Assembly: GCA_022567295.1 (NCBI GenBank)
Contig: JADFHE010000001.1
Span: 86,429-150,428 of the forward strand
Direction: 5' to 3'
Origin: Pseudomonadota bacterium
GTDB taxonomy: Bacteria; Pseudomonadota; Gammaproteobacteria; Steroidobacterales; Woeseiaceae
Length of the DNA: 64,000 nt
Shown here: piece by piece, positions 4,030 to 54,147 of the stretch
How positions within the stretch are numbered: position 1 is the stretch's first letter
How the letters are laid out: each line of letters starts with the position of its first letter
The notes under the pieces: generated by a model
Databases searched by the model: none
Told to the model about the DNA's origin: nothing
What the model saw: the letters and a program-made list of their open reading frames with translations, nothing else
Program-made: the position numbers and the translations under genes

Positions 4030-5768
4030 TGACTCGCATTCCGGACCGCCATCGCCTGCATGACGCTGCCGGGGTCACGAGCGGGTATGGCGTCGGGTGG
4101 TACAGCCAGAAGGCGCAAAGATTCTGACATGACGTCGGCGAATACCGGTGCCGCCACATCGCTGCCGTAATAAAACTTTCCGCTCGGCTCGTCGATGACG
4201 ACAACGGTCGCGAGCCGGGGATTGCTGGCTGGCGCCAGGCCCGCGAAGATCGATATGTATTTATCTTCGGAGTAACCGCCTTTAGCATATTTCCAGGCAG
4301 TGCCTGTCTTGCCGGCCACTCTGTAGCCATTAATCGAGGCCTTCGTTCCCGTGCCGCCCGGACGCACGACTTCTTCGAGCATGCGGCGCACAGCGACGGC
4401 TGTCGCTTCGGAAAGGATGCGCTCACCAGGCATCACTTTATCAATCGCCAACAACGTGACCGGTTGTATTACGCCATTATTGCCGATCGCCGCGTACGCC
4501 TGCACGAGTTGCAGTGGTGTTACCGAAACTCCATAACCATAAGAAAGCGTTGCCTGGCTTATTTTGCTCCAATGGCTGTAGTGCGTCAGCATGCCCGCCG
4601 ACTCACCGGGGAAGCCACTGCTCGTCACCTCACCGAGCCCGAAACGCGTCATCGCACCCCACAACTGATCCTGTTGCAAGGTCAGCGCAACCTTCGTCAT
4701 TCCGACGTTGCTTGAGCGCGCCAGAATAGTGGTCAGACTGATTCGACCGAGATTCCTGCTGTCCTCGATTTTCTTTGCGCCGACAGTGATGAAGCCTGGC
4801 GCTGTGTCGATAACGCTACTTGGACGGTATTGACCGCTTTCAAGTGCGGCAGCGATAATCAATGGTTTGATACTTGATCCTGGCTCGAAAATATCCGTGA
4901 TCGCACGATTTCGGTAGCGTTCCGGCACAAACTGCGAGCGATCATTTGGATTGTAGGTCGGCTGGTTGACCATCGCGAGCACTTCGCCGGTCTGCACGTC
5001 GAGGATAACGACGGACCCTGATCGAGCATTGTGTGATCTCACGGCAGCTTTCAAGGTTCGGTATGCAAGGTATTGCAGTCGCAGATCAATGCTCGTGCGC
5101 AGATCTTTGCCGTGACGCGGCGGCCGAATGCTTTCGACGTTTTCGATTGATCGGCCCAGGCGATCTTTCAGCACGCGCTTTGCGCCTGACTCACCTTCGA
5201 GCCAGTAATTCATCGCAAGTTCCAGGCCTTCCTGTCCCTCATCATCAATGTTCGTAAATCCAACCAGGTGCCCGGTCACTTCCGACGCCGGGTAGTAGCG
5301 GCGATATTCGCGTTGTACGTTGATGCCGGGTAGCTTTAATGCCATCACACGCTGTGCCGCGCTTGGATTCAAATGCCGTTTCAAGTAAAGAAACTCCTTG
5401 TCCATGCTGCGCGTAATTCGGCGCATCAGAACCTCCGGCTGCAACTCCAGCTCCTTGGCCAGCTGCGGAATTTTGTCGATGGCACCCGCGAACTCGCTGG
5501 GGTTGACCCAGATGCTGTCGACAGGTGTGCTGATCGCAAGCGGTTCACCATTGCGATCAAGTATCGTGCCGCGATGTGCCGATATTGTCTCGGTACGCAA
5601 ATGGCGCGTGTCGGCCTGCCGGTTCAGGAACTCCTTATCGAGGACCTGCAGGTAAACAGCGCGTGCGACCAGTGACGATGCAATCATCGCGAAGAACGTC
5701 ATCACCATCGACACTCTGACCACGAAACGTCGTGCGGTTTTCTGTTTTGTCTCTGCGCCGTGTGTCAT
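4026..5768 (-). CDS. ftsI: Peptidoglycan D,D-transpeptidase FtsI (PBP3)
   Basis: Single N-terminal TM, EPGSSIKPL, SSNVGM, KTGTAWK motifs; dcw context. Confidence 0.97.
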   Translation of the reverse strand: MTHGAETKQKTARRFVVRVSMVMTFFAMIASSLVARAVYLQVLDKEFLNRQADTRHLRTETISAHRGTILDRNGEPLAISTPVDSIWVNPSEFAGAIDKIPQLAKELELQPEVLMRRITRSMDKEFLYLKRHLNPSAAQRVMALKLPGINVQREYRRYYPASEVTGHLVGFTNIDDEGQEGLELAMNYWLEGESGAKRVLKDRLGRSIENVESIRPPRHGKDLRTSIDLRLQYLAYRTLKAAVRSHNARSGSVVILDVQTGEVLAMVNQPTYNPNDRSQFVPERYRNRAITDIFEPGSSIKPLIIAAALESGQYRPSSVIDTAPGFITVGAKKIEDSRNLGRISLTTILARSSNVGMTKVALTLQQDQLWGAMTRFGLGEVTSSGFPGESAGMLTHYSHWSKISQATLSYGYGVSVTPLQLVQAYAAIGNNGVIQPVTLLAIDKVMPGERILSEATAVAVRRMLEEVVRPGGTGTKASINGYRVAGKTGTAWKYAKGGYSEDKYISIFAGLAPASNPRLATVVVIDEPSGKFYYGSDVAAPVFADVMSESLRLLAVPPDAIPARDPGSVMQAMAVRNASQ

Positions 5769-7829: not shown

Positions 7830-8230
7830 AAGTGAGAAAGCCGGAGCCAGCAATAAGCCGGGTTCTGTCATCGACAACCATTCATCTGGGACGACTGTCG
7901 CCAGCCGCCTCAAGCGACCTACCCGGGAGTCCGTTCGGAACCGACGGTGGCAACACCCAAACACCCCCTATTGGGGGCGTTGTGCATTGCCCTACTCCCC
8001 TATTTGGTCTTGCTCCGGGCGGGGTTTACCGTGCCGCGAACTGTTACCAGCCGCGCGGTGCGCTCTTACCGCACCTTTTCACCCTTACCGGCGAGGCCGG
8101 CGGTATATTTTCTGTGGCACTTTCCGTGGGCTCGCGCCCCCCAGGCGTTACCTGGCGCCCTGTCCGAGGGAGCCCGGACTTTCCTCTGCAGTTGCCTGCA
8201 GCGATTGTCTGGCCAACTCCGGCTTTCTCG
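7830..8230 (-). ncRNA. rnpB: RNase P RNA (bacterial class A)
   Basis: Minus strand contains GAGGAAAGTCCGGGCTCC, GCCAGGTAACGCCTGG, GGGTGAAAAGGTGCGGTAAGAGCGCACCGCGCGGCTGGTAACAG, GGCACGGTAAACCCCGCCCGGAGCAAGACCAAATAGG, GATGACAGAACCCGGCTTA; ends pair AGAAAGCCGGAG/CTCCGGCTTTCT (P1). Confidence 0.97.
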
Positions 8231-45912: not shown

Positions 45913-47181
45913 ATGAGTCTGTTTACGAAAGCGCAAGCCGTGATTGCCGGCGGCGTCAATTCACCGGTGCGTGCTTTTGCAGGCGTTGGCGGTGACCCCG
46001 TGTTCTTCAAGAGTGCCAAGGGCGCATACCTATGGAGCGAGGATGGACGCCGATTTATTGATTACGTCGGCTCCTGGGGGCCGATGATTCTCGGCCACGC
46101 CCATCCAGCGGTTATCGACGCGGTCACAGAGACGGCGAGGCAAGGACTGAGTTTCGGTGCGCCGTGCGTATTGGAAACCGAACTAGCTGAAAAGATCTGT
46201 GAGCTTGTGCCGTCGATCGAGAAATTGCGCATGGTTAGTTCCGGTACCGAAGCCACAATGAGCGCCATTCGGCTTGCGCGCGGCCACACGAATCGCGACA
46301 AGATCGTGAAATTTGAAGGGTGCTACCACGGCCATTGCGACTCCTTACTCATCAAGGCCGGATCCGGCGCGTTAACGCTGGGCGTGCCCAGTTCACCGGG
46401 TGTTCCCGCGAGTCTTGCCGAGCATACGATTACTCTGCCTTTCAATGACATCGACGCAATCCAGGCCGCGTTCGACGAACTGGGCGAGCAAATCGCGTGC
46501 GTTATCGTCGAGCCGATCGCCGGCAACATGAACATGGTGACTCCCGTGCCAGGCTTCCATGAAGCACTGCGAGAATTGTGCACCGCCGCTGGCAGCATTC
46601 TGATCTTTGATGAGGTCATGACCGGGTTCCGCGTCGCGAAAGGCGGCGCCCAATCCATTTTCGGGATCACACCGGACCTCACTACGCTGGGAAAGATAGT
46701 AGGTGGTGGTATGCCCGCTGCAGCTTTCGGTGGCCGCGCCAGTATTATGGACAGCATTGCGCCGGACGGCCCTGTGTATCAGGCAGGAACGCTGTCCGGC
46801 AACCCGGTCGCGATGGCCGCGGGTCTCGCAACGCTGCAACTGATCGATGCGCCAGGATTCTACGAATCGCTGGCCGCCAGGACGCAGCAGCTGGTCGATG
46901 GTCTGGCCGATAAAGCTGCTGCTGCGGGTATTCCGCTGGCGACGGAGTGCGAAGGCGGCATGTTCGGTTTGGTATTCACCGACGCGGAGTCTATCCGCAG
47001 CTTCGATCAGGTCGTCGCCGCTGATGTGAAGAGATTCAAAAAGTTCTTCCACGGCATGCTGGATGAAGGCATTTACCTGGCACCGTCAGCTTTTGAGGCA
47101 GGTTTCGTATCCGCGGCGCACGGTGACGACGAAATAAACGCGACGATCGCTGCAGCCGACAGGGTATTCGCAGCCGTATAG
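45913..47181 (+). CDS. hemL: Glutamate-1-semialdehyde 2,1-aminomutase
   Basis: [64 protein letters not shown]. Confidence 0.98.
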
Positions 47182-47196
47182 GGCCACCCAGCGAAC

Positions 47197-47386
47197 GTCC
47201 GCTTCGGGTCGTTAGCAGCCCTTTTTCTTGATTCTAGCTCAATATCTGCTTCCGGGGGTAAACCGGCCGTTTTGAGAACAGAAATTGAACTCCTCCCATC
47301 TAGTGTCCGCTTTTCTCCAAAGCGGACGCTCAGATCATCAGAAATTCAACAATTCTAGGGGCTGCTTTCGGCCACAAGCGGTCATT
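47197..47386. repeat. ~190-bp multi-hairpin repeat, copy 1
   Basis: GTCCGCTTCGGGTCGTTAGCAGCCC ... GTCCGCTTttctccAAGCGGAC ... GGGGCTGCTTTCGGCCACAAGCGGTCATT. Confidence 0.85.
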
Positions 47387-47399
47387 GCAGGGCGTTGCA

Positions 47400-47705
47400 T
47401 TACCATTCGGCGCTGACCACACCCGCAAGGCGCTTCAATTCCGCGACATGGCTGGCGAACGCCTTCCGACCAGAAGTCGTCAAGCTGGCCCACATACGTT
47501 GCCGCCCATTTACGGCGCTCTTTCGAAACTTTACGTATCCCACTTCTTCGAGTTGTTTCAGGTGCTTGGAGAGTACCGAGTCACTGACATTCAACTCATC
47601 GCGTATCACCTGAAACTCTGCCTCCTGCAGCGGGGTCAGAAACGCACAAATTTGCAGTCGGTTGGGTGCGTGGATGATCGTGTCGAACCGTACCTTTGCC
47701 ATCAA
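47400..47705 (-). CDS. Winged-helix transcriptional regulator (HTH_34/ArsR-MarR-like)
   Basis: LQEAEFQVIRDELNVSDSVLSKHLKQLEEVGYVKFRKSAVNGRQRMWASLTTSGRKAF. Confidence 0.85.
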   Translation of the reverse strand: MMAKVRFDTIIHAPNRLQICAFLTPLQEAEFQVIRDELNVSDSVLSKHLKQLEEVGYVKFRKSAVNGRQRMWASLTTSGRKAFASHVAELKRLAGVVSAEW

Positions 47706-48163
47706 CGTGTACCGTCACCGGCCTTCTTGAAGTAAAAGCGCCTTTCGCTTTCGCTCAAGAGGAAGATCGTAATGCCAGCGATAAGCCCTGTCACCAGTGG
47801 CACCCAGGCAATATCGTAAGCGCGCCTGACAATGATGCCGCCGAAAAACAATGCAATTAGAAATGCGCAAATCCCTGCCATTGCCCAAACTCCCGCCTTC
47901 GTGTCTGGAAGTTCTTTGCCGAACACACCAATCCTCTCGCGACTGAAACCCACGAAAAGAGCGATTCCCAGAGCTATGAACAAACCAGGAAAACTGCCTG
48001 GATCTTCCAAAGCATAAAGTGCAAACCCAATAGCAACGATTAACGATATCCCGATGCCAAACCAGCGAGGCGGAATGGCGCGACGGAAGCCCGATCTTGT
48101 CATCTTTTCTACCGAATCCAGCGCGTCTTGCGCTTCATCGGACTTGATATTTTCGCCTGTCAT
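47702..48163 (-). CDS. Hypothetical four-TM membrane protein, translationally coupled to the regulator
   Basis: Four hydrophobic stretches; stop overlaps regulator start. Confidence 0.8.
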   Translation of the reverse strand: MTGENIKSDEAQDALDSVEKMTRSGFRRAIPPRWFGIGISLIVAIGFALYALEDPGSFPGLFIALGIALFVGFSRERIGVFGKELPDTKAGVWAMAGICAFLIALFFGGIIVRRAYDIAWVPLVTGLIAGITIFLLSESERRFYFKKAGDGTR

Positions 48164-48166
48164 TAT

Positions 48167-48252
48167 TCATCTCTTTCCAGAACGGAAAGACAATTCTACA
48201 TCATCTCTTTCCACATTGGCAAGTTATATTTTTCCGATGCGGAAAGAGATGA
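48167..48252 (-). promoter_or_regulatory. Putative autoregulated promoter with three identical 12-bp boxes
   Basis: TCATCTCTTTCC at 48167-48178 and 48201-48212, reverse complement at 48241-48252; minus-strand TTGCCA-18 nt-TAGAAT. Confidence 0.6.
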
Positions 48253-48257
48253 GTACG

Positions 48258-48449
48258 ATGTCAGCTTTGGGTCATTAGCAGACCTTTTGACCGATATTAC
48301 CCCAACGGCCGCTTCCAGGGCCAAACCAGCCGTTCGCGAGGCCGATTTTCAGAACTGGAATCTGAACGTCTGCTTTTCCCAATAGCGGTCGTTCAGATTC
48401 AATGAATAACTTCAGTATGACGGGCCGCTTTCGGCCACAAGCGGTCATC
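48258..48449. repeat. ~190-bp multi-hairpin repeat, copy 2
   Basis: ATGTCAGCTTTGGGTCATTAGCAGACC ... ACGGCCGCTTCCAGGGCCAAACCAGCCGTTC ... GGGCCGCTTTCGGCCACAAGCGGTCAT. Confidence 0.85.
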
Positions 48450-48582
48450 CGGATAAGCTGGACTCACTTGCATTTTGTAGGTTGGGCCAGAAACCCGAAA
48501 ATGGATCGAGTAGTGGGAACCTGTCCAGATCACATAGAATTTACTTGACCATCAGGCACACCGATTCCTGGAGACACTGGAC

Positions 48583-49245
48583 ATGAGCAGAAACAGCCTT
48601 CGTATCGACGACGCGCTCGAGGCATACCTCGCGGTACTGCTGCCGGAGGAACCGGCGGTGCTCGCGCGCTTGCGCGAGGAAACCTCCCGACTCGAGGCTG
48701 CGTCCATGCAGATCGGCCGGGACCAAGGGCGCTTCATGACGCTGCTGTTGTGCTGCCTCGGCGCGCGAAGAACCATCGAGGTGGGCGTGTTCACCGGCTA
48801 CAGCACTTTGATCACCGCGCTGGCTCTCCCGAACACGGGCCGCATCGTCGCCTGCGACATCAATCGACAATGGACGGAGATCGCGCTGCGGTATTGGCGC
48901 GAGGCTGGCGTTGCTGACAAGATCGACTTGCGCATCGGCCCGGCCGCCGACACCCTGGACGCTATGCTCGCCGGCGGCAAGGGGGAGTCCTACGACTTTG
49001 CGTTCATCGATGCGGACAAGCCGGGCTACGACGGCTACTATGAACGCTGCCTGGCGCTCTTGCGGCCGGGCGGTGTCATTGCGATCGACAACGCACTGTG
49101 GGGCGGTTCGGTAGCGAACTCGGTCAAGAACAGCGAGGACACGCAAGCGATTCGGGCGCTGAACGAAAAGATCTCCCGCGATCCGCGTGTCGAAGCCTAT
49201 CTTGCCCCGGTTGGCGATGGCGTGCACCTCGCCTGGAAGAGATAG
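48583..49245 (+). CDS. Class I SAM-dependent O-methyltransferase (CCoAOMT-like)
   Basis: TIEVGVFTGYSTLITALALP, YDFAFIDADKPGYDGYYERCLALLRPGGVIAIDNALWGG. Confidence 0.93.
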   Translation: MSRNSLRIDDALEAYLAVLLPEEPAVLARLREETSRLEAASMQIGRDQGRFMTLLLCCLGARRTIEVGVFTGYSTLITALALPNTGRIVACDINRQWTEIALRYWREAGVADKIDLRIGPAADTLDAMLAGGKGESYDFAFIDADKPGYDGYYERCLALLRPGGVIAIDNALWGGSVANSVKNSEDTQAIRALNEKISRDPRVEAYLAPVGDGVHLAWKR

Positions 49246-49476
49246 CTAACGGCGCTAATGAGATTCTATTTTCCCATCTCGATATCGGAAAATCGTGAGA
49301 GCCGGTGCAATTTACCAGCGGTTCTTGTAGTTTTACATTTTTCACACAGTCTCGGCTAAAAGCAGACGTAGTCACGGCACAGCCTGTTGCCGGTGAGACT
49401 GTCTCAATTACTCGAATACCGGCGCGGTCCGGGCGGATTAGATATTATCGGCCGTATCCCTTTTTCCAGACAAATT

Positions 49477-49947
49477 ATGATCAAGCGCATCGTCGAAACA
49501 GTTGTCACGGCAATCAAGGCAACGAGCTCACCGGAATCTGAGACATCGGATCGCGAAAGTGCGTTGCGACTTGCAACAGCTATCCTAATGGTCGAGGTAG
49601 CGCGCGCCGATCACGTCTTTGAACAGTCCGAATTTGAACGGCTGATCGCGCTTATCACGTCACATTTCGAGCTTTCACCTGAAGATGCGGCCGACCTTGT
49701 CGACTACGCGAGCGAGACCACCGAGGGCGTCGTGCATCTGTATGACTTCACACAGCTCTTGCACAAGCACCTTACCAAGACCGAGAAAGCACGGATCGTT
49801 GGACTGCTGTGGCAAGTTGCGTACGCTGACGGACGGCTTGACAAGTACGAGGATTCGCTCGTTCTGAAAATTAGCGACTTGTTGTATGTTGGCCGCGGCC
49901 GCGTCATGCGACTCAAACACGACGCTGAAATGGCCGCGAACGGCTGA
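49477..49947 (+). CDS. TerB/DjlA-N family protein
   Basis: Helical TerB pattern: ATAILMVEVARADHVFEQSEFERLIALI ... LLWQVAYADGRLDKYEDSLVLKISDLL. Confidence 0.85.
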   Translation: MIKRIVETVVTAIKATSSPESETSDRESALRLATAILMVEVARADHVFEQSEFERLIALITSHFELSPEDAADLVDYASETTEGVVHLYDFTQLLHKHLTKTEKARIVGLLWQVAYADGRLDKYEDSLVLKISDLLYVGRGRVMRLKHDAEMAANG

Positions 49948-50271
49948 ACGGAAAGCAAGCCGCGAGTGGACGCTTGAGGTGCAATACAGCTGAATACTAT
50001 TGACCCCAAAATCGCTCCAGGTGCCCATTTGGTGCCCACTTCGACGCGGCACTAATCGATTCTGCTTCATATTGAATGGCCGCTTTAGGGGGTGATCTCA
50101 ACCGGTCGACGCAACACCTTAACTAGAACGCAGAAGATGGCGTGTATGCTGATGAATCAATGAAGACATCGAGGTTTCACGGCGGCAGAGAAAGTGAAAT
50201 TGTTGGACCGCTAGAAGCTAGCAGGGGCGCCGATTTCGATCGCGAAGATAAACCAGTCGCAGTTGAAATCG

Positions 50272-50970
50272 CTACTGCGACACCTGGGCGGTCTTGTTCA
50301 TCAGCTTATTTGCTGCGGCAAGCAAATCCTCGGCAGGCAAGCGAATCTTGTAGTCAGGATTCACAAAGTCAAAAACAATCTCGCCTGAGCGATCGACGAC
50401 ATAAACCGCCGGCACGGCAAGGGCGTTATGCTTGCCGATCGAAGAGCCTGCGTAATCGCGGTCTTTTTGCTCCAGGTAATCGGTCAGACCCTTGTCGGTC
50501 CTGTACGCAGTACCAAGTGCCATTGCTGCACTGAGATCCGCGTCCGAAAGAATGACATAGTCCAGGCCGTCAATACTCTCTTGCGTTTCCCTCTTAAGAC
50601 TTGAGTACAGCAATTCCGGCCTGTCGTTACTCAGGAACAGAACGTCGAAACCATTCTTTCTGAGCTCGGGAACGACTGTGCGCAGCTCCGAAAGATGCAT
50701 GTTGCAATAGGGGCACCAGCCGCCTCGGAACGAGATCAGAATCGTTGGACGTTCGAGGTTTTCCGGGTCAAACACAAAAGGTTCGTCGTCAACTGTGCGC
50801 ACCGTAAATGCAGGCGCCCGATCGCCGGTAATAAGCGGTGTCGTTTCCTCTGCACTCGCAGGCAATGCCGCATAATCGGCCGCGACTACTCGGTTGGAGT
50901 GCGAAAGCACAAAGGTTCCCAATAACAGCACCAGAAAGGTCAGGTAGACAATGTTTCGGCCGAAGCGCAA
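50272..50970 (-). CDS. Redoxin/AhpC-TSA domain protein, membrane-anchored or secreted
   Basis: TILISFRGGWCPYCNMHLSEL (CxxC); N-terminal hydrophobic segment. Confidence 0.9.
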   Translation of the reverse strand: MRFGRNIVYLTFLVLLLGTFVLSHSNRVVAADYAALPASAEETTPLITGDRAPAFTVRTVDDEPFVFDPENLERPTILISFRGGWCPYCNMHLSELRTVVPELRKNGFDVLFLSNDRPELLYSSLKRETQESIDGLDYVILSDADLSAAMALGTAYRTDKGLTDYLEQKDRDYAGSSIGKHNALAVPAVYVVDRSGEIVFDFVNPDYKIRLPAEDLLAAANKLMNKTAQVSQ

Positions 50971-51096
50971 GGCAAGTTCTCCTTGTTCGACAATCCACCG
51001 GACCCTCGAGGGGGAGATAATATTACAGCAGGTTGCTAATCAAGAGTAGGCGACGGCCGGGGGTCGAATCAGACCGCTATTTCAGAAACACATTGG

Positions 51097-51290
51097 AATG
51101 TCCGCTTCGGGTCACAAGCAGCCCTTCACCGCCATTCTAGCCCAACGGCTGCTTCCGGGGGCAAAGCAGTCATTCGGAAGGGAGTTTTTGAAAGTCAGGA
51201 TTTAAGTGTCCGCTATCATCAATAGCGGTCGTTCAAATCGCTAGAAAATCAGCGAATTGACAGACCGCTTACGGCCATTTGCGAACTCCA
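51097..51290. repeat. ~190-bp multi-hairpin repeat, copy 3
   Basis: ATGTCCGCTTCGGGTCACAAGCAGCCC ... ACGGCTGCTTCCGGGGGCAAAGCAGTCATT ... GTCCGCTAtcatcaaTAGCGGTC. Confidence 0.83.
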
Positions 51291-51314
51291 AGTCATAAAC
51301 TATGGTCGCTGGCA

Positions 51315-51773
51315 CTAGCGCTGAGATTTTCTGGCCCATATTTTGCTTTTCCATTCATCGCCAAATAAATCGAATGTATTTAGCGCGTAAACGCCAATGA
51401 TCACGGTCCAGCTAACGGCCATTAGCCCAATGAACCCCCACCCTGTCGTGTCATCCACCACGAAAACAAACGTGAATATCAAAGAAAAAATCGCCAACCC
51501 CGCGAGCTTGTAGATGCCTATTACGCCTTCCGTGTAAGCCTCTTTTCTCGTCTGATCATCTTGCTCTGCCGTGATAATGCCGACGGCATCAACTGCTTCA
51601 CGCTGTAATTCGCTAATTTCTATGTCAAAAACAGCGGACAATGCTTTTAATGATTCCAGCCCGGCTTTCTGGTCCCGCTCAATTCTCTGGATGGTTCGAA
51701 TACTCAAGCCGCTCATTTGTGCCAATTGATCTTGAGACCAATATTTTTGTTTTCTTAATTCTCGGATGTTCAT
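51315..51773 (-). CDS. XRE-family HTH protein with C-terminal two-TM region
   Basis: LRKQKYWSQDQLAQMSGLSIRTIQRIERDQKAGLESLKALSAVFDIEISEL followed by two hydrophobic helices. Confidence 0.88.
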   Translation of the reverse strand: MNIRELRKQKYWSQDQLAQMSGLSIRTIQRIERDQKAGLESLKALSAVFDIEISELQREAVDAVGIITAEQDDQTRKEAYTEGVIGIYKLAGLAIFSLIFTFVFVVDDTTGWGFIGLMAVSWTVIIGVYALNTFDLFGDEWKSKIWARKSQR

Positions 51774-51945
51774 TTACTTCGTCCAATAGCTGTGTGGTTT
51801 TCAAGCCTCATTGTGCCCAAATGACGGTCTGGCGGTTACGACAAACACCGGACAAAAGAACGACATTTCAGTTATTTCATGTGTTTACGAAGTCAGGCAT
51901 CATCATCGAAGACATCGGTTGTGACAATAATATTTATTTCCAACC

Positions 51946-52135
51946 GTCTGCAATGGGTCATTAGCGGCCCTTCGCTATCCTATCAATCCAACGGCCGCTT
52001 CTGGGTGCAAAGCGGCCACTCGGCAACCCGATTTCGCAAGTCTCAGGCTGGATATCTGCTTTTCCCGAAAGCGGACGGTCAGTTGGCTCAAAATCAGCTG
52101 TTTTGACTTCCACTAACGGCCAGGAGCGGTCGTTC
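51946..52135. repeat. ~190-bp multi-hairpin repeat, copy 4 (diverged right end)
   Basis: GTCTGCAATGGGTCATTAGCGGCCC ... AACGGCCGCTTctgggtgcAAAGCGGCC ... CTGCTTTTCCCGAAAGCGGAC. Confidence 0.78.
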
Positions 52136-52241
52136 CTGAATCCGACTATACTAGGCGGCCGTTTTGCAAACTGTATGGTGACATAGGACGATCAGGAAAT
52201 GCATCATGAACGGGCTCGACAATACTTACTGGAGAACAAAA

Positions 52242-52718
52242 ATGAAGAAAGTAGTACTGGTTCTAACCGCACTATTGGCCTTTGGCGCCACGATTGCGCA
52301 CGCTGATGAGGCGACTGAGCAGGCAGTGATCAAAACGATCATGGACGGCAATGCTTACGTCAAAAAGAACCTCAAGGGTATGGATGATACGATCGCGAAA
52401 GAGGGATCGCTTGAATTCTGGTCGAGCGGCGGGCTGCTCCAAGAAGTCGATGCGGATGCTGCACCACAGGAATTCGACGCAATCAATCTTAATGCGAAGC
52501 ACATCACCGTCATCACGCTGGTTCCGGGGAAGATCGCCGTCGCACAGTATTATTCAGAAGGTTCGATGAGCCCAAAAAACAGTGCCGCCGTGAGCAACTA
52601 TTTCACACGCGTTACGGAGGTATACGTCAAGGAAGGCGGAAAATGGAAGACGCGGGCCGCGCACTACTCGCCAATCGCCGGTGGAGCGGGCACGAGCCAA
52701 ACCGCAGTAGACGATTAG
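52242..52718 (+). CDS. Secreted small NTF2/SnoaL-like protein
   Basis: Signal peptide MKKVVLVLTALLAFGATIAHA; YFTRVTEVYVKEGGKWKTRAAHYSPIAG. Confidence 0.7.
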   Translation: MKKVVLVLTALLAFGATIAHADEATEQAVIKTIMDGNAYVKKNLKGMDDTIAKEGSLEFWSSGGLLQEVDADAAPQEFDAINLNAKHITVITLVPGKIAVAQYYSEGSMSPKNSAAVSNYFTRVTEVYVKEGGKWKTRAAHYSPIAGGAGTSQTAVDD

Positions 52719-52792
52719 GTTCAACCTTTTTGCGCCAGAGCCTTGTGTTCAATAATTTGGCTTCTCTCCGCTGAATTTCTGAAAATGGAAAG

Positions 52793-52814
52793 CCCCGGCC
52801 AGACCGGGGTTTTT
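52793..52814 (+). terminator. Rho-independent terminator after the NTF2-like gene
   Basis: CCCCGG-ccaga-CCGGGG followed by TTTTT. Confidence 0.85.
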
Positions 52815-52914
52815 CCTGGCCAGCAGTTGCATTTGTCGAATGTCTGCTTTGTGATCTTGTATCGGTTTCACGGACACCTAATTTTAGCGCGATAATGCGC
52901 TGTGGAGGTGCAAC

Positions 52915-52986
52915 ATGAGCCGAAGAAAACGGTACTCCGCTGAGTTTAAGCGCGAAGTCCTTTTACGGGTTTCAATTGTTGTATGA
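52915..52986 (+). pseudogene. Remnant of IS3-family transposase orfA (N-terminal 23 codons)
   Basis: MSRRKRYSAEFKREVLLRVSIVV*; start resembles IS3-type OrfA, then stops; upstream GGAGG ribosome-binding site. Confidence 0.7.
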
Positions 52987-53025
52987 AGACGCAACCACTA
53001 CGGCATACAGCTGGACGAGGTCAAT

Positions 53026-53355
53026 TTAGCCACCCGCCGTCAGGTACGGAATCGTTCCTGCGACATCGGTTGAGTCTATGGCGATGAAGTGGCTGTCGGT
53101 ACCTGCCTGTCGGGCTGCAGCATACGGCGCGTAATCAGGATCCGCGATGAAAGCTTGTAAGGCATCCATGCTCGGAAACTCAATTATTGCGACCAGATCT
53201 GCATCAGACTGATTTCCTTCTATTGTGGTGATATTGCCGCTGCGAGAAAGGTACTTACCGCCGTGTCTATCCACAATATCGTGCACCTTAGCAGCGTAGT
53301 CCGAAATCCAGCTATCGTCGTTGACCTTGACTTGCGCGATCAAATAGTTCGTCAT
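53026..53355 (-). CDS. DUF1330 family protein
   Basis: NYLIAQVKVNDDSWISDYAAKVHDIVDRHGGKYLSR, IEFPSMDALQAFIADPDYAPYAAARQAGTDSHFIAID. Confidence 0.92.
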   Translation of the reverse strand: MTNYLIAQVKVNDDSWISDYAAKVHDIVDRHGGKYLSRSGNITTIEGNQSDADLVAIIEFPSMDALQAFIADPDYAPYAAARQAGTDSHFIAIDSTDVAGTIPYLTAGG

Positions 53356-53434
53356 TCTCTTTACCCCCACTGTTTATGTGTTGGATGAAATGCTCTACCG
53401 AGCGTAATAGTCGTTAAGATCTACAGCAAATCTG

Positions 53435-53514
53435 GTGTCCGCTTCGGGTCGTTAGCAGCCCCTCAGGACTCCACCATCCCAATGGCCGCTTTTTGCACGA
53501 AACCGGCCATGACG
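53435..53514. repeat. Multi-hairpin repeat, truncated copy 5 (left half only)
   Basis: GTGTCCGCTTCGGGTCGTTAGCAGCCC plus ATGGCCGctttttgcacgaaacCGGCCAT; modules C and D absent. Confidence 0.75.
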
Positions 53515-53559
53515 ATCGGCAGAATAGAAAAAACCGCAAGCAGCGTTTTCATGTTCTCC

Positions 53560-54147
53560 TCAATAACTTCGTACCGGCCCCCTGACTGAGTCCAGCAATT
53601 CGTCAACGAGCTTTAGTCGAGCGACCGTATCGCTGCTTTCAAGGCTCAACTGCTTTCGGTCCAGGTCGATCGGCAGAATCTCGAGGAACCGGTAGGTGAC
53701 CCACACGGCGTCGTCATAACGACGATCCAATGACTCATAGAGACGGCCCAGATCATCTATTACGTTGGCAAGAATCTGCGTCAGCGCGCGGTACTCGTCC
53801 GGCAATGGGAGCGAATCCTCAGCTGCCACCAACTCGACCTCGCCAACATTGAGTCCATCGCTTTGGCGTTCGCTGGACTCGAGGCGAAATCGCTGCTCCC
53901 CGATGGCTGTTATACCAAGCAGTCCGTCGCTGCCCTGATACCAATCCGAAATCCTCGCCAGAGTACCCACATTATGTGTCGTCGCCAAACCGGCTTCCGC
54001 CCCTTCCCGGATCAACAAGACGCCGAACGGCGAATCGGTTTTCAGGCAATTACTCACCATATCCAGATAGCGCGTCTCGAAAATCCGCAACGGCAGGGGC
54101 CCGCCGGGAAACAGGACAGTGTTCAATGGAAAGATCGGTATCCGCAC
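53560..54147 (-). CDS. LON peptidase substrate-binding domain protein
   Basis: IPIFPLNTVLFPGGPLPLRIFETRYLDMV, FGVLLI, IGEQRF. Confidence 0.93.
   Translation of the reverse strand: MRIPIFPLNTVLFPGGPLPLRIFETRYLDMVSNCLKTDSPFGVLLIREGAEAGLATTHNVGTLARISDWYQGSDGLLGITAIGEQRFRLESSERQSDGLNVGEVELVAAEDSLPLPDEYRALTQILANVIDDLGRLYESLDRRYDDAVWVTYRFLEILPIDLDRKQLSLESSDTVARLKLVDELLDSVRGPVRSY

Follow-up and report, generated by a model that had tools for sequence, protein, structure and literature searches.

Integrons are the familiar bacterial machinery for gathering unrelated genes into arrays with dedicated sites, and the locus described here raises the question of whether a repeat element standing between unrelated small genes can be the mark of another such machinery. 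The locus lies in the window, by which we mean the whole 64,000-nucleotide stretch of a Woeseiaceae (Gammaproteobacteria) contig that was analysed, and it takes the form of a 6.4-kb array between hemL, with its stop at 47181, and a LON-domain gene, with its stop at 53560. Comparison of the repeats and of their surroundings makes it probable that the elements move as non-autonomous units and serve as att-like sites for a recombinase, so far uncharacterised, which assembles cassette arrays of the integron kind. If this is true, a recombinase unrelated to that of integrons does similar work at sites of its own, the gathering of genes in arrays evolved more than once, and many of the accessory genes that lie outside integrons would find an explanation; the sites also offer a direct bench test.

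The first-pass annotation had drawn attention to a four-module repeat at 47197-47386. This first copy is real, but its start has to be corrected to 47194, which gives an element of 193 bp with the modules A-B-C-D (Table 1); the module D sequences quoted for copies 1 and 2 match the DNA, and the reverse complement of A, quoted as ending in GGACAT, actually reads GGACGTT. Seventeen full copies align almost gap-free although their mean column identity is no more than 73%, and successive modules start at intervals of 50, 57 and 60 bp. A pattern derived from A has 4 matches in the window, versus 0.03 expected from shuffles, and one derived from D has 2, versus 0.00. The covariance model returns about 41 element matches in the genome to which the window belongs (G000; 3.0 Mb in 82 contigs, 86% complete), and the C-D half of copy 2 is identical to that of G000:C33:58510-58702, the A-B halves being different. 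Element lengths are stepwise, at ~77 bp (A and D only), 133-137, 174 and 193 bp. Carriers are patchy within the order: elements occur in 42 of 60 genomes, with 1 to 42 copies each, and some good-quality genomes of the same genus have zero or one. The four-module consensus has no plasmid matches, and in an Rfam search of the whole window at gathering score the element was unmatched, RNase P being the sole match.

Table 1. Features of the array in the window (CM, covariance model; positions are those of the window)
Feature	Position	Strand	Basis or remark
Whole array, 5 elements and cargo, between hemL and LON-domain gene	47182..53559	.	Neighbours adjacent in relatives
Element copy 1, modules A-B-C-D, 193 bp	47194..47386	+	CM match 172 bits; 17 copies aligned with almost no indels
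Module A: outer arm AACGTCCGCTT, spacer CGGGTCGT, inner arm TAGCAGCCC	47194..47223	+	Palindromic site scan; putative left hybrid end
Putative mobile unit of copy 1 (CGGGTCG...CGGCCA, 170 bp)	47205..47374	+	Boundaries from near-identical copies with different flanks at other loci of the family
Module B, spacer TTCCGGGGGTAAA	47241..47272	+	Start-to-start distance from A fixed at 50 bp
Module C, AGTGTCCGCTTTTCTCCAAAGCGGACGCT	47302..47330	+	Site scan; 57 bp after B
Module D: spacer TTTCGGCCACAA, outer arm AGCGGTCATT	47357..47386	+	Site scan; 60 bp after C; putative right hybrid end
Winged-helix regulator (HTH_34), its stop codon 14 bp from module D of copy 1	47400..47705	-	Cargo gene; Pfam, ORF
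153-aa protein, no family	47702..48163	-	Cargo gene
Element copy 2, 193 bp	48257..48449	+	CM match 174 bits
O-methyltransferase	48583..49245	+	Cargo gene; homologs at other loci in relatives
TerB	49387..49947	+	Cargo gene; homologs at other loci in many relatives
AhpC/TSA peroxiredoxin-like	50272..50970	-	Cargo gene
Element copy 3	51097..51289	+	CM match 172 bits
HTH_3 regulator, its stop codon 26 bp from module D of copy 3	51315..51773	-	Cargo gene
Element copy 4	51943..52134	+	CM match 149 bits
170-aa ORF, no family	52206..52718	+	Cargo gene; 89% DNA match at unrelated locus G026:C3
DUF1330	53026..53370	-	Cargo gene
Partial element, only modules A and B, right end of array	53434..53515	+	Sequence, weak CM match

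That A and D are inverted repeats of each other, as had been noticed in copy 1, describes a real relation: across 16 full copies, 19.1 of the 30 positions of A are identical in the reverse-complemented D, versus 10.1 when shuffled. The relation is not exclusively an inverted one, however, since the direct likeness is equal (19.7 of 30). In the same copies D agrees with its own reverse complement at 19.6 of 30 positions and A with its own at 17.1, and A and D are equally well direct repeats because each module is an imperfect palindrome. Folding of the top strand pairs A with D in the minimum-energy structure of 13 of 17 full and 19 of 20 two-module copies, and on the bottom strand the pairing is predicted in 10 of 17 and 17 of 20 respectively. 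The fold of copy 1 that contains it has a z of -6.6 as RNA and -5.8 as DNA; in copy 2 the A-D pairing is absent from the best RNA fold. Among twenty 77-bp copies, 86.9% of cells are paired in the A-D register as against 21-50% when the register is slid, but 66 of 500 shuffles attain the A-D covariation score of 0.091, and 127 of 500 attain that of the self-hairpins. The cloverleaf proposed in the first-pass annotation, with an A-D stem closed around B and C, is therefore predicted in most copies but, lacking covariation, finds no support as a conserved RNA structure. Since the pairing comes without covariation, A and D look like conserved DNA sites rather than the two sides of an RNA stem, and the pattern of pair counts is as expected of protein-binding inverted DNA sites. 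We rejected a structured RNA on these grounds, the folds being stable but compensatory changes not exceeding shuffles for either A-D or the self-hairpins. Folding as single-stranded DNA, as in integron attC sites, may occur, the predicted fold being compatible with it, and copying may use such a folded strand. A coding repeat was also entertained and set aside: spurious ORFs such as MSALGQKRTF may stem from related repeats in other bacteria; such strings were not found in the literature searched.

The ends of the unit can be located where recently copied, near-identical elements lie in unrelated flanks, for there the common sequence runs only from the A spacer to the D spacer. The pairs that define the ends are 8728/11366 in L122 (99% identical), 10509 in L124 with 7294 in L125, 1909/7168 in L119 and 1321/1973 in L091, and they fix the boundaries between CCGCTT and TGGGTC on the left and between CGGCCA and NNAGCGG on the right, a placement made from a handful of pairs examined by eye, to which an automated search for high-identity pairs added only three. 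The outer arms AATGTCCGCTT and AAGCGGACATT are conserved across the family yet differ between the two copies of a pair, so that the arms go with the target place and not with the unit. Each module may be read as a core recombination site consisting of these two inverted arms of ~11 bp around a spacer of ~8 bp. A and D would then be hybrid end sites, the unit reaching from the A spacer (TGGGTC...) to the D spacer (...CGGCCA) and the outer arms belonging to the target. Integration of a unit by a tyrosine recombinase would leave just such a pattern, with A as the left hybrid site and D as the right one. Site structure and unit boundaries are well supported at the level of sequence. Gene conversion could copy elements without a recombinase, but the repeated boundary positions argue against it. 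The earlier suggestion that the outer modules are termini of a non-autonomous transposon was largely right, although the ends themselves fall within A and D. The enzyme is likely to be a tyrosine recombinase whose own unit has these ends, and not a typical DDE transposase. Target-site duplications, which had been named as a possible trace of transposition, were not seen by eye in the flanks of aligned copies, where the conserved arms would obscure them.

A candidate enzyme is encoded in the same genome. P0001, on contig C11, is a tyrosine recombinase of 208 aa with partial elements on both sides in opposite orientation, and the recombinase of the relative G026 is flanked by elements in the same way. 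Pfam sees only the catalytic domain (PF00589) in it, and the residues R59, K87, H156, R159, H182 and Y191 are invariant in 35 of 35 homologs. The simple YRs described by Smyshlyaev et al. (2021, PMC8138268) consist of core-binding and catalytic domains; P0001 shares with them the catalytic domain and the RKHRH pentad with its tyrosine, and is unlike them in that Pfam finds the catalytic domain alone. The enzyme of the system is most likely a tyrosine recombinase of ~208 aa in which the catalytic domain is not preceded by any recognisable binding domain at the N-terminus. The single contig of the distant genome G103 holds two recombinase units, 91% identical and at different places, which start between CCGCTTC and TGGCC and end between CGGCCA and NAAGC, like the short elements; the CGGCCA end and the TGGSYC start are common to the short elements and the recombinase unit, a sharing of ends of the MITE type.

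Sites also accompany the recombinase elsewhere in the phylum. At 27 further recombinase loci drawn from across Pseudomonadota, an upstream site lies 60-160 bp from the recombinase in 12 (2.5% of control windows; p about 6e-13) and a downstream inverted site 15-75 bp from it in 14 (1.8% of control windows; p about 5e-18). Nine of these 27 distant loci have no recognised site on either side, and in the named plasmid cases examined the motif match was weak or absent. In G084 a perfect 30-bp site follows the recombinase within 30 bp and four more such sites separate the next genes; intergenic single 30-bp sites (e.g. AATGTCCGCTTTGGGTCGGAAGCAGTCATT) stand there in places where Woeseiales-like genomes show two to four. 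There is a fair chance, somewhat short of even, that these are parts of one cassette system, separate from integrons and spread across Pseudomonadota, with a ~208-aa catalytic-domain-only recombinase, which uses single 30-bp sites in some genomes and enlarged elements of two to four sites in Woeseiales-like bacteria. The recombinase family was found in 57 of 399 sampled Pseudomonadota genomes and in 394 plasmid records. Among the 60 genomes surveyed for elements, only 6 (including that of the window) carry the recombinase, versus 42 with elements, and since the enzyme is rarer than the elements, incomplete assemblies or enzyme loss must be assumed; recombinase presence is too sparse for a test against element number across genomes. 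A comparison of G084 with G283 for an empty site of the recombinase unit gave flanks that are not conserved. The literature searched, with thin coverage of subscription journals and preprints, holds no account of such sites, of this recombinase or of its role, which we take as a weak sign of novelty.

The surroundings of the elements bear on whether genes travel with them. The first-pass annotation had looked to empty sites in sister genomes, and one is present for the array as a whole: hemL and the LON-domain gene are directly adjacent, with no element at their junction, in at least 12 genus relatives (species). By this comparison the array in the window is an insertion, a block of unrelated genes, and for several of these the best matches in relatives are dispersed over other loci. 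Woeseiales-like genomes hold many co-oriented elements at intervals of 0.3-1.5 kb, each interval containing one gene or a few, and elements and genes alternate, often in a single orientation, at L122, L124, L127, L130 and L078. On the D side the neighbouring gene turns its 3' end towards the element in 82 of 118 cases (82:36), and the A side is without such preference (odds ratio 3.2, p 3e-5, on a codon-based gene call); this is a tendency rather than a strict rule, and of the 104 inter-element segments 39 sit between oppositely oriented elements. Typical cargo is small and varied, including GNAT acetyltransferases, glyoxalases, cupins, DUF1330 and DUF1428 proteins, regulators and many proteins without a family. 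In a carbonic-anhydrase-like cassette, 84% identical over 640 bp between G038 and another MAG, the common stretch begins immediately behind a site in each genome, and in one of the two it stops at the D end of an element. We infer that cassettes may be shuttled: the recombinase would catalyse exchange at the sites, and genes between two sites could be excised and inserted as cassettes.

Known systems that the elements resemble offer rival accounts. The array layout, the gene 3' ends at sites, the variable element length and the A-D fold with a variable middle are all attC-like, and the genome carries, on a contig other than that of the window, a broken IntI-like gene (G000:C3:29034-29908) with a GTTAGGC junction beside it, so that the elements might be diverged attC sites of the lineage's canonical integron. 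We regard this as very improbable. The element ends in aligned copies are AATGTCCGC.../...GCGGACATT and not RYYYAAC/GTTRRRY; the element-rich G026 and G034 have only XerC/D-level IntI matches (about 80 bits), and TIGR02249 has no match above cut-off in G026, G034, G013 and other element-rich genomes, whereas genomes with full-scoring IntI are often element-free (G037, G040, G043, G049, G050); and a non-IntI recombinase carries element-type sites at its own ends. Canonical attC was rejected because neither end motifs nor integrase distribution fit. With integron arrays the system shares a tyrosine recombinase, sites at gene 3' ends, tandem unrelated small genes, a site composed of two inverted simple sites, represented here by A and D, around a variable middle and, in some genomes, a recombinase beside the array. 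The 59-base element of integrons is likewise composed of two simple sites, with the same logic as the A-D pair. The system differs from integrons in that both outer arms change when a unit moves, in that gene-free units also move and in having a recombinase of ~208 aa that does not belong to the IntI family (it scores 19 bits, the cut-off being 265). The system does not belong to the integrons: its elements lack the diagnostic ends, and several genomes rich in elements have no integrase of the IntI family above cut-off.

A gene-free element would be enough if the repeats were only MITE-like, non-autonomous, moved by the short recombinase, with cargo incidental and arrays representing insertion hot spots. 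Whole elements are indeed copied without their neighbours and many are solitary within their region, and like MITEs they are short, multi-copy and non-coding with inverted termini common to an enzyme-coding relative. They differ from MITEs in the tyrosine recombinase and in target sites with conserved arms; no target duplication was seen, though the arms would obscure one. This account is unlikely, given that relatives lack the entire array with its genes at the hemL-LON site, that most matching cargo genes match at scattered loci of relatives, and that gene orientation is biased, G084 has gene arrays with single sites and the shared cassette ends at sites. A little more doubtful still is an origin as REP/BIME-type palindromic repeats, moved by RAYT (Y1) transposases and working in the transcript, behind genes, to terminate it or to stabilise the mRNA. 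The elements are intergenic, palindromic and enriched beside gene 3' ends, with predicted folds far more stable than shuffles, and they resemble REP/BIME and CGTC- or GTAG-tagged repeats in their intergenic palindromic modules and mosaic groups. REPs of the CGTC family have stems of 8-9 bp, loops of 4-5 nt and a CCA-like tail (PMC3733652), unlike the element arms of ~11 bp around a spacer of ~8; the element stems lack covariation beyond shuffles, and Y1_Tnp was unmatched at the threshold used in G044 (41 copies), G034 (36), G010 (36), G012 (29), G036 (28) and G018 (27). The repeats differ from REP/BIME in arm and spacer sizes and do not show its tagged (GTAG or CGTC) stem and loop of the CGTC type; RAYT/REP was rejected because these element-rich genomes offered no link to RAYT genes. 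The reading that we prefer remains that of recombination sites serving a cassette array.

Several observations stand apart from this argument. The bacterial class A RNase P RNA of the window lies at 7839-8220. At 48164-48255, ahead of the small operon 47400-48163, the sequence TCATCTCTTTCC..GGAAAG occurs three times, in direct and inverted order, and these copies may be operators for the operon's winged-helix regulator. On G000:C3 (L140) the broken integron integrase gene, at 4034-4960 of the locus, and the canonical GTTAGGC junction, at ~5057, lie near the contig end, and this is a separate integron, apparently inactivated. The 174-bp class of elements has four modules at shorter spacing and is typical of some species (L127, L128, L129 (G034), L133 (G018)). 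Contigs C20, C32, C33, C41, C54, C64, C68, C72, C75 and C81 of G000 end within ~1-2 kb of an element, which suggests that repeats or strain-variable arrays break the assembly. Elements also occur on short MAG contigs named Poribacteria, Bacteroidetes and Ignavibacteria (L094, L109, L111), which are probably misbinned gammaproteobacterial contigs or, possibly, cases of transfer.

Insertion sequences recur inside the modules. An IS30-type IS (end TGTTGCATCGACCGGTTGA; we take it to be IS30 from the start of its encoded protein) and a miniature form of ~266 bp sit within element modules at L057 6225, L132 2388, L044 ~9405, L104 ~79, L090, L116 and L060, and the IS seems to target these repeats. 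A 99%-identical match of 2.4 kb between G000:C76 and G044:C1 was considered as a cassette junction and rejected, its stop inside an element being the end of an IS30-type IS in module A. In the window, a repeat of ~117 bp (TTGTATCGGTTTCACGGACACC...) is inserted in a module at 52840-52957, with more copies on G000:C11 and G000:C55, and is perhaps an IS end with the start of an ORF.
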